A stretch of DNA of 6,042 nucleotides from NCBI GenBank assembly GCA_937877125.1, contig CALEFQ010000109.1, positions 1-6,042 on the forward strand, given 5' to 3'. Of the stretch, positions 4,277 through 6,042 are shown piece by piece. This DNA is from an uncultured bacterium. GTDB taxonomy: Bacteria > Patescibacteriota > CALEFQ01. A program made the translations under genes and the position numbers. Position 1 is the stretch's first letter; every line of letters begins with the position of its first letter. The notes beneath the pieces were generated by a model. It had not been told where the DNA came from, ran no database searches, and worked only from the letters and a program-made list of their open reading frames with translations.

Positions 4277-5134
4277 TCATAGTAGCCAGAATAATCCTGT
4301 GATGATAGCCAGTCCAATAAGTAAACTGGCCAAATTCATTATCATGCTTAGTACAAATGATTTTTTCAGAGAGACCCTTTTTTTGTTTAATAGATAGATG
4401 AAAAATCCTTCAAAAACAAAGACTAGGATTTCCCCGATGATGACATTAAGCAAATTTGCTCTCAGAAAGGTGAGCGCGTACCATAAAACTGGCAAGGAGA
4501 TAACATTGGCGATCACTACCGAGAGCAAGATTTTTAACGAGGTTTTGGTCGACGACAGAAAAATCAAAGCGGCTATAACTTCAATGAGAAGAGTAAATCC
4601 CAAAGCGGGCAGTATGCTTTTGATAATTTCCCAGTGTTGGCTGTCGAAAAAGTTATTCGTTTCCTGGAGTTGTATGCTTCCATCAGGTAGCAAGTCTGCG
4701 TCGAAGTTATTTTGCATATTTTCCAAAGTGAAGGGTGAAGACAAATATACTTTGTCTTGGCTGGGCAGGTAAATAGCCAATCTCAAGAGGAAGGGAGAAG
4801 CGGGAATAGGACTTAATCCTCCGGTAAAATCACAATTTCCGTCACTGCAAAAGCTATGTCCGAAGGTGAGAGGGCGCCAATAGCAAGCATCTTGAGAATT
4901 ATATTCATTGATATTTTTCAACTGGGTATTTAGATTCTCCGCTGGCTGGATTGTTTTTTCCTCTGGTTTTTGGCAAGTCAGAAGGTTGGCGTCAAAAGCG
5001 GAATCAGGAACCGCTTGTTTGTTTAAGGTGACTCGAAAATCTACCGAAGGGCTGGGGGCGATATCGGCAGAGGCGATCAGGGGGAGGAAAAAAATAGACA
5101 AGGCGAAGATGATAAATGCTAATCGGTTTTTCAT
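4277..5134 (-). CDS. Exported membrane protein, Cys-containing ectodomain plus four TM helices
   Basis: I do not recognise a named family for this 285-residue protein. It has a cleavable-looking signal peptide (MKNRLAFIIFALSIFFLPLIASA, cut near 23) followed by ADIAPSPSVDFRV. An extracytoplasmic domain of about 145 residues comes next, with four cysteines (54, 84, 96, 101) that could form two disulfides. Four hydrophobic helices follow at roughly 173-195, 200-223, 226-249 and 260-284, with a basic loop KKRVSLKK between the third and fourth. The ADIAPSP start and C-terminal helix bundle are seen in uncharacterised exported proteins. The ATG at 5134 is set by the signal peptide; its leader is A-rich with only AAAGAA near the start. 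It is transcribed away from the structured RNA unit at 5250-5505, and a 9-bp inverted repeat (5165-5197) lies between them. The gap to the metallophosphoesterase gene is 101 bases. Confidence 0.75.
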   Translation of the reverse strand: MKNRLAFIIFALSIFFLPLIASADIAPSPSVDFRVTLNKQAVPDSAFDANLLTCQKPEEKTIQPAENLNTQLKNINEYNSQDACYWRPLTFGHSFCSDGNCDFTGGLSPIPASPFLLRLAIYLPSQDKVYLSSPFTLENMQNNFDADLLPDGSIQLQETNNFFDSQHWEIIKSILPALGFTLLIEVIAALIFLSSTKTSLKILLSVVIANVISLPVLWYALTFLRANLLNVIIGEILVFVFEGFFIYLLNKKRVSLKKSFVLSMIMNLASLLIGLAIITGLFWLL

Positions 5135-5214: not shown

Positions 5215-5243
5215 TTGACTCTGGTTTAATCTTTTACTAAAAT
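5215..5243 (+). promoter_or_regulatory. Sigma70-type promoter of the structured RNA
   Basis: TTGACT (5215-5220) and TAAAAT (5238-5243) are separated by exactly 17 bases, with one mismatch to each consensus hexamer. The predicted transcription start is near 5250. No credible coding start follows; instead the structured RNA and its terminator do. Confidence 0.8.
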
Positions 5244-5259
5244 ACTTAAAGATTGGAAA

Positions 5260-5312
5260 CGACTGTTGTTCATCTGCAGTAATGCGGAGGCGGGTTCGAA
5301 TCCCGCAAGTCG
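5260..5312 (+). other. tRNA-like fold lacking a D-arm, with canonical T-arm
   Basis: CGACT (5260-5264) pairs with AGTCG (5308-5312) as a short acceptor-like stem. Eight unpaired bases replace a D-arm. TCTGC/GCGGA (5273-5277/5284-5288) form a 5-bp stem with a 6-base loop. One linker base follows, then GCGGG/CCCGC (5290-5294/5302-5306) enclosing the seven-base loop TTCGAAT, which is the exact consensus T-loop. The 3' side is not followed by CCA and continues into the L1-stalk-like segment, so this is not an ordinary aminoacylatable tRNA. Confidence 0.6.
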
Positions 5313-5327
5313 GTTCCGCGATAGGAG

Positions 5328-5404
5328 CATGTGTGTAGGATAGTCGGGAGGCTATGAAGTTTTCGCGCCAGCGGTAATGGAGCCGTCACTTGAAATACCG
5401 ACCT
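5328..5404 (+). other. 23S rRNA L1-stalk-like segment (helices 76-78)
   Basis: By eye, against E. coli 23S as I remember it (about 2093-2196), roughly three quarters of about 73 positions agree. The invariant-looking blocks GTGTAGGATAG, GGGAGGCT, GAAGT, GCCAG, ATGGAGCC and CTTGAAATACC are in order. The H76 stem GGTGG/CCACC of E. coli is GTCGG (5343-5347)/CCGAC (5398-5402) here. GGCT/AGCC (5350-5353/5381-5384) forms H77. CGC/GCG (5364-5366/5371-5373) closes the conserved GCCA loop of H78. This is the binding site of ribosomal protein uL1 in the ribosome. Confidence 0.75.
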
Positions 5405-5476
5405 TGTGCGCCGAAAGCGACTTGGAAGCCGGGGCATTATGCCTGGCAACCAGCGTTTCAAGGAATTCCAATCACA

Positions 5477-5510
5477 GGGAGAGTGCTTTTCGGCTCTCCC
5501 TTTTTCTTTT
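5477..5510 (+). terminator. Intrinsic terminator of the structured RNA
   Basis: GGGAGAG (5477-5483) pairs perfectly with CTCTCCC (5494-5500). A further T-G wobble and a T-rich loop lie inside the stem. Five Ts, a C and four more Ts follow. It sits about 230 nt downstream of the predicted start and closes the ncRNA unit. Confidence 0.9.
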
Positions 5511-5730: not shown

Positions 5731-5759
5731 TTGGCGCCGGATCGTATCTATGTTATAAT
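5731..5759 (+). promoter_or_regulatory. Sigma70-type promoter of the ftsA-like gene
   Basis: A perfect TATAAT (5754-5759) lies 17 bases after TTGGCG (5731-5736). The predicted start near 5766 falls inside the first leader hairpin, giving a 5' untranslated region of about 125 nt before the ATG at 5891. The preceding 5511-5730 is AT-rich and I found no gene in it. Confidence 0.78.
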
Positions 5760-5890: not shown

Positions 5891-6042
5891 ATGGGCCTTT
5901 TTAGCAAACCAAAAACCAAATTACACCAGTACGCCCTGGCACTTGATATCGGCACGGCCGTCGTCAAGGCCTTGGTAGTGCAAATTAATTTCCGCGAATC
6001 CCGCGGGACGATTATCGGCGTGGGGCGCGAGCCCCAGCGGCT
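5891..6042 (+). CDS. ftsA: FtsA/PilM-type actin-like ATPase, N-terminal fragment, 3' end outside window
   Basis: The frame opens at ATG 5891 after a GGAG ribosome-binding site and runs off the window. Fifty residues are visible, MGLFSKPKTKLHQYALALDIG and onward. ALALDIGTAVVKALVVQ is the phosphate-1 loop of the actin/Hsp70 ATPase fold, in the form seen in FtsA and its relative PilM. GTIIGVGREPQR matches the following strand where FtsA has a VxGxGxxxS/Q segment. FtsA tethers FtsZ filaments to the membrane at the division site; PilM does a related scaffolding job for type IV pili. With only 50 residues the two cannot be separated firmly, and the gene symbol is tentative. The basic N-terminus (KPKTKLHQ) is longer than in E. 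coli FtsA. Expression is probably controlled through the structured leader. Confidence 0.75.
   Translation, partial: MGLFSKPKTKLHQYALALDIGTAVVKALVVQINFRESRGTIIGVGREPQR

Follow-up and report, generated by a model that had tools for sequence, protein, structure and literature searches.

The DNA analysed here, referred to as the window, is a stretch of 6,042 nucleotides (nt), and positions 5251 to 5505 of its forward strand are occupied by a compact RNA gene with a perfect T-arm in its 5′ third, a full L1 stalk of the 23S rRNA type in the middle and a terminator at its end. The gene lies between a leftward open reading frame (ORF) without a Pfam match (4277 to 5134) and an ORF that begins at 5891, and the frames of at least 40 codons that run over it are merely short overlapping ones (43 to 63 codons). 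On the same strand, a promoter search placed the promoter-like site TTGACT-17-TAAAAT at 5215 to 5243. The 17-base spacing pointed out in an earlier sequence-only reading is therefore present, but the site is weak taken alone: the window holds 14 promoter-like sites against an expected mean of 9.5 (standard deviation, 3.0), little above chance, and a site of at least 9 of 12 ending 12 to 14 bases ahead of the AAC motif described below was seen in 4 of 10 members of the RNA family. A second promoter-like site, TTGGCG-17-TATAAT with a TG (5731 to 5759), stands ahead of the ORF at 5891, which thus need not depend on the RNA's promoter. At the 3′ side, the terminator search returned the intrinsic terminator that had also been anticipated (5476 to 5510), with a hairpin at 5476 to 5501 followed by a T-run, and hairpin plus T-run recur in 9 of 10 members.

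The 5′ end of the RNA is likely near 5251, where the stem P1 (5251 to 5258 paired with 5466 to 5473), seen in the minimum free energy fold and in a strand-swap test across the family, closes the domain. An AAC junction motif, placed by eye at 5258 to 5260 and reading ANC in 10 of 10 members, precedes P2, an acceptor-like stem (5260 to 5264 with 5308 to 5312) whose 3′ strand is one base off the T-stem. The variable arm at 5265 to 5289 measures 11 to 37 nt in a comparison of ten members and may act as a D-loop-like connector. The T-arm, GCGGG-TTCGAAT-CCCGC (5290 to 5306), pairs 5290 to 5294 with 5302 to 5306 around the loop TTCGAAT (5295 to 5301), and it is supported by the sequence, the tmRNA model and covariation, in agreement with the earlier description of a perfect T-arm at this place. 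Farther downstream, P4 (5324 to 5331 with 5405 to 5412) forms the base of the stalk, whose helices (5343 to 5402) were delimited by alignment fold and covariation and are taken by us to be H76 (5343 to 5347 with 5398 to 5402), H77 (5350 to 5352 with 5382 to 5384) and H78 (about 5361 to 5376). Stalk alignment located the first stalk T-loop segment, GTAGGATAG, at 5335 to 5343 and the second, TTGAAATACC, at 5390 to 5399. Folding of 5250 to 5510 gave −98.5 kcal/mol (z, −2.92; as low in 2 of 200 shuffles), and z values of −1.86, −3.23, −1.56 and −3.30 were obtained by the same folding for four relatives. With relatives ranging from −1.56 to −3.30, energy by itself is undecisive, and since promoter-like sites are also near chance, promoter and energy alone are unconvincing. 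The combined pattern of T-arm and stalk gave one match in the window and none in 200 shuffles.

Relatives of the RNA were found in three ways. The genome contigs of 84,980 species were searched with a strict pattern, in which the T-loop is followed at defined distances by ATAG..GGGAG and TTGAAATAC, and all seven stretches returned were relatives on reading; six of the records are named Parcubacteria, Falkowbacteria or Giovannonibacteria and one is named "bacterium." A covariance model, proposed as a check by the sequence-only reading and built here from eight sequences, added two members (G083 and G110), and a looser pattern applied to a phylum-wide draw added another (G783). The family thus has eleven members, the window and ten uncultured Patescibacteria-type genomes (loci L022 to L028, L042, L050 and L158), and the order of parts is retained in all ten relatives. 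The window's own placement depends on a single named protein match, at 63%, to a Patescibacteria protein. In G783, P1, P2 and P4 are all present together with the terminator, and the pattern that found it contained none of the three stems. When the covariance model R1 was run over 285 genomes from the class of G004, 181 matched; this is no family count, because 24 of the 30 loci read were 23S genes and six were the RNA. Two loci, L050 (no RNA flagged automatically) and L039 (a 23S-like motif flagged), were classed by reading. Two pattern scans of viral contigs gave 21 stretches and 1 stretch, all of them chance on reading, and blastn against plasmid and phage collections gave stalk-type matches only.

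The structure of this family is under selection. Covariation was analysed in ten members (G783 being left out) over the 27 pairs of the T-stem, P4, H76, H77 and H78, and 20 of these underwent at least one double change. Paired cells amounted to 80.7%, versus 63.9% after shuffling and 43 to 55% with the partners slid, and the covariation score was 0.531, versus 0.229 for shuffled alignments and 0.106 to 0.237 for the slid controls. Unaided, RNAalifold recovered the T-stem, H76, H77 and H78 but did not predict P4, which pairs in just 57.5% of cells in alignment columns; the outer two pairs of the T-stem are broken in 4 and 3 of the 10 members. When the strands of P4 were swapped between members in near-fixed register, true partners scored 11.24 versus 2.55, and 0 of 20000 permutations did as well. 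The corresponding test of P2 gave 8.94 versus 4.12 (1 of 20000), and the signal is weak without the fixed register (permutation value, 0.025). P2 pairs at 5 of 5 positions in six of the ten members and is poor in G003 and G006; in the eight members where it can be placed, 0 to 1 base separates it from the T-stem, as the acceptor stem of a tRNA likewise adjoins the T-stem. For P1, strand swapping gave 20.46 versus 14.58 (2 of 20000), a test that chose another stem for the window (5′ window ending at 5256) and in which the G004 hairpin, without a T-run, was positioned by hand. The distance from T-loop to stalk is 40 to 44 nt in 10 of 10 members. The sequence-only reading had named a lack of covarying pairs as a possible countercase, which these results remove, and the composite of a tRNA-like part with an L1 stalk that it proposed is real, judging by the retained order, the covarying helices and the eleven members. 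Both parts do have clear rRNA and tRNA relatives, as would be expected if rRNA and tRNA genes had left a decaying fragment; decay is scarcely credible, however, given the covariation, the nearly constant spacing and the full set of helices in the eleventh member.

We then compared the stalk with 23S rRNA. The L1-stalk-like segment in the middle of the RNA, recognised earlier from the letters, was borne out by blastn against plasmid and phage records, in which the matches listed (the best 16 of 40) fall within 5329 to 5409 only, with up to 81% identity and an E value of 1e-9; two of these 16 are annotated, both as 23S rRNA, and the others are unannotated there. On the relatives, the LSU model matched over 2125 to 2216 and 2128 to 2213 only, in two of five at the gathering level; LSU is absent from the Rfam listing of the window, and a differently run scan listed none for the same relative RNAs. 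The family thus resembles the 23S L1 stalk (H76 to H78) in about 75 bases that are up to 81% identical, with the same helices and the same T-loop segments, and differs from it in lying outside an rRNA gene, in having its own closing stem and a joined T-arm, and in occurring in hosts with a different or a truncated stalk of their own.

Relative to the Salmonella 23S stalk, GTAGGATAG and TTGAAATACC are nearly fixed in ten members, whereas H78 varies freely and mostly still pairs. Positions 2112, 2114, 2115, 2117 to 2120, 2167 to 2169 and 2171 to 2175, in what we take to be the 23S numbering, are identical in 10 of 10 members; drift was noted in the second T-loop of G110. The two segments presumably correspond to the pair of interdigitated T-loops that, in the ribosome, stack against the elbow of the tRNA, and their conservation fits elbow docking. 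It cannot single out an elbow in cis, because most of these letters are also kept in 12 aligned CPR 23S stalks.

Identity between the RNA stalk and the host's own 23S stalk was 48, 58, 59, 65 and 71% in the five of nine hosts compared (the G002 host stalk was added by hand). A 23S gene or gene fragment was accordingly rejected, as the similarity goes no farther than the stalk and none of these five hosts has a near-identical stalk in its own 23S gene; the recent rRNA fragment that the sequence-only reading had held out as a countercase falls with it. Mean identity of nine of the ten stalks was 68 to 80% to five non-CPR stalks versus 61 to 69% to 32 CPR stalks, and the mean to ordinary bacteria exceeded the identity to the host's own 23S in four of five hosts, being lower in G110. 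Since the RNA stalk resembles that of ordinary bacteria, it is conceivable that the RNA acts on foreign ribosomes by competing with the stalk in host or prey cells. We regard this as highly improbable: G110 is an exception on the mean (67 versus 69), as is G006 by best single match (72 versus 74), and the canonical letters may merely be the ancestral state. In G003, the host 23S stalk is reduced to a short hairpin and the free RNA has a full stalk. This short stalk agrees with the loss of H78 reported for ABY1, WWE3 and Microgenomatia in PMC12641178. The G003 genome, whose shortened 23S stalk is at locus L095, still has a uL1 gene (L038). Two further loci, L044 and L045 (G071 and G116), hold 23S genes with stalks of the ordinary bacterial kind and a second stalk match elsewhere in each genome, possibly through contamination.

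Known RNA classes were considered in turn. The tmRNA model (Rfam RF00023) matched the T-arm and 5′ segment at 18.9 bits (gathering cutoff, 47; E, 0.00013). This weak likeness is below threshold, the RNA has no visible tag frame or 3′ CCA stem on reading, and a separate tmRNA scoring above the cutoff (84.8 to 141.6 bits) was found in seven of seven hosts tested; tmRNA was therefore rejected. A subthreshold RNAI match lies elsewhere in the window. ARAGORN found no tRNA cloverleaf in the window. The raiA motif (ModT) RNA is likewise a free-standing structured bacterial RNA, of about 210 nt according to PMC11706538 and PMC11751092; its model (RF03072) matched neither the window, searched at E up to 5, nor any of nine relatives, searched at E up to 0.1. 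Neither the T-box (RF00230) nor the RNase P models matched the RNA itself in the window and nine relatives. A T-box leader was also rejected on context, as ten neighborhoods share no downstream family and the single T-box, in G110, is beside the RNA and not in it. According to PMC4810234, 23S, RNase P and T-box RNAs all dock the elbow by means of a double T-loop. Going by its letters, the RNA has a pair of T-loop segments like those of the L1 stalk, as the elbow-docking class does, and so shares this device with the T-box and the RNase P specificity domain; it departs from both in that the predicted partner elbow is built into the RNA. Apart from LSU on the stalks of two of five relatives and weak subthreshold matches, no Rfam family was found on the RNA, none exceeds the threshold in the window, and no such family appears in the open full-text literature searched, subscription journals being mostly outside that search. 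The RNA family thus has no described counterpart in Rfam or in that literature, as the sequence-only reading had supposed.

The family is rare. In the class of G004, the looser pattern matched 6 of 383 genomes (reversed control, 0); it matched 2 of 379 in the phylum-wide draw, and the first pattern matched 6 of 380 in the class of G003, of which two are real (G001 and G003) and four lack a stalk (reversed control, 3 genomes); the three draws overlap, and the counts are not additive. The index genome is the sole carrier within the families of G003 (1 of 6) and G005 (1 of 18). The concern that homologues might be absent even in close relatives proved correct for these two families of 6 and 18 genomes, but the RNA family itself is real. 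Being rare and missing from close relatives, it is dispensable. In G005, a unit of about 280 bases lies between two codirectional genes, which are close together without the RNA in three close relatives (neighboring protein 83 to 93% identical); five relatives were read, with G765, which has another neighbor, and G772 left out. In G004, the RNA and a PaaX-like gene are located between rplU and recR, both named by Pfam, and rplU adjoins recR (identified there by reading) in four of six relatives, one of the others having another gene between and one ending with the contig. The PaaX-like gene (L084:7660-8214) is also absent from that junction in those four. Gain of one unit is a simpler reading of these sites than clean repeated loss.

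Such a sporadic distribution, with an RNA-less site in three G005 relatives and rplU and recR adjacent in four of six G004 relatives, also suits a small SINE-like mobile element assembled from tRNA and rRNA pieces, whose fold would serve its own spread and no cell function. Several results make this quite unlikely: no second copy above 25 bits was found in the nine hosts scanned with the model, 23S-type matches aside; direct repeats of at least 12 do not flank the three units tested; no transposase or integrase domain occurs in 38 flanking ORFs; and the structure is kept by divergent sequences. Among those 38 ORFs (up to two per side, ten members), no Pfam family over the cutoff is shared. As the neighbors share no family and a terminator usually follows, the RNA most likely acts in trans as a unit of its own.

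Individual neighborhoods have features of their own. About 100 bases past the G110 terminator there is a T-box leader (L080:7230-7472; 94 bits, cutoff 93) with tRNA-His behind it, which is absent from the gathering-level scan of the whole locus. A class A RNase P RNA, also elbow docking, lies 2 kb downstream in G007 (L081:9506-10038; 136 bits), perhaps by chance. Near the G003 copy, a tyrosine-recombinase-like ORF and an AbiEi/AbiEii-like pair were recognised by eye (L024:2022-2987 and 6002-7373), the first ORF of the pair lacking a Pfam match, and the region is possibly mobile or defensive. A YafQ/ParE-like toxin gene is two ORFs away in G002 (L023:3176-3427), and ribonucleotide reductase genes of different classes stand beside two members (L081:4444-7203 and L079:2896-4983).

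What the RNA may bind was considered from both of its parts. The H76-H77 region is the site of uL1 in the ribosome, and the uL1 operator in rplK-rplA mRNA is an RNA mimic of that site. Because the H76-H77 region is kept and the hosts G001, G003 and G005 possess uL1, the RNA might be a decoy or sensor whose stalk binds and titrates the protein. However, uL1 was found in just these three of nine hosts and not in the other six (host genome completeness is not stated); none of the 38 ORFs scanned around ten members contains a ribosomal L1 or L11 domain; unlike the operator, the RNA is not beside rplA or rplK in ten neighborhoods; and the reading leaves no role for the T-arm. We therefore consider a uL1 decoy decidedly unlikely and give up L1 sensing, suggested in the sequence-only reading, as a general role. 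As uL1 was found in three of nine hosts, retention of the stalk extends to hosts in which the search did not find the protein.

Since one molecule holds an elbow-docking stalk and, 40 to 44 nt away, a T-arm, the two may dock in cis or across copies. The internal mimic of stalk and elbow envisaged earlier remains the best reading, with the docking itself predicted. In its developed form, which we favor tentatively and hold to be plausible at not quite an even chance, the RNA would be a self-contained elbow clamp: the two stalk T-loop segments would interdigitate as in the ribosome and dock on the RNA's own T-arm, in the same molecule or a second copy, and uL1 would not be required. Cellular tRNAs, chiefly deacylated ones, may compete for the clamp, which would open and close with tRNA supply and act in trans on tRNA or the ribosomal E site. 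Through such competition, the clamp could serve as a reporter or a buffer of tRNA, or it may act at the E site. Alternatively, the stalk could be a trap in trans that holds the elbows of free deacylated tRNAs, the T-arm being only a lid or folding scaffold. The docking device, as in T-box and RNase P, and the stand-alone layout would fit a trap, but inspection by eye brought out no element that would read an anticodon or CCA, and the T-arm, whose distance hardly varies among ten members, suggests a built-in partner, so that we see the trap as unlikely. Returning to the self-contained clamp, it is possible, though less than probable, that the family constitutes a fourth class among the RNAs that dock tRNA elbows: a portable unit, passed on horizontally, that would bring the E-site contact into one free molecule, with a canonical stalk that the ribosomes of some hosts have lost, and that would act in trans on tRNAs or ribosomes without uL1.

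It is inside the ribosome that the L1 stalk grips the tRNA elbow. If the self-contained clamp is correct, this contact would be used as a separate module by a free RNA in which both partners are united, and some of the bacteria concerned have lost the stalk protein or a portion of the stalk itself. The RNA would also extend the list of elbow-docking classes, of which three are known, and the review PMC4810234 anticipates more cases. The RNA would then offer a ribosome-free model for studying the contact between stalk and elbow.
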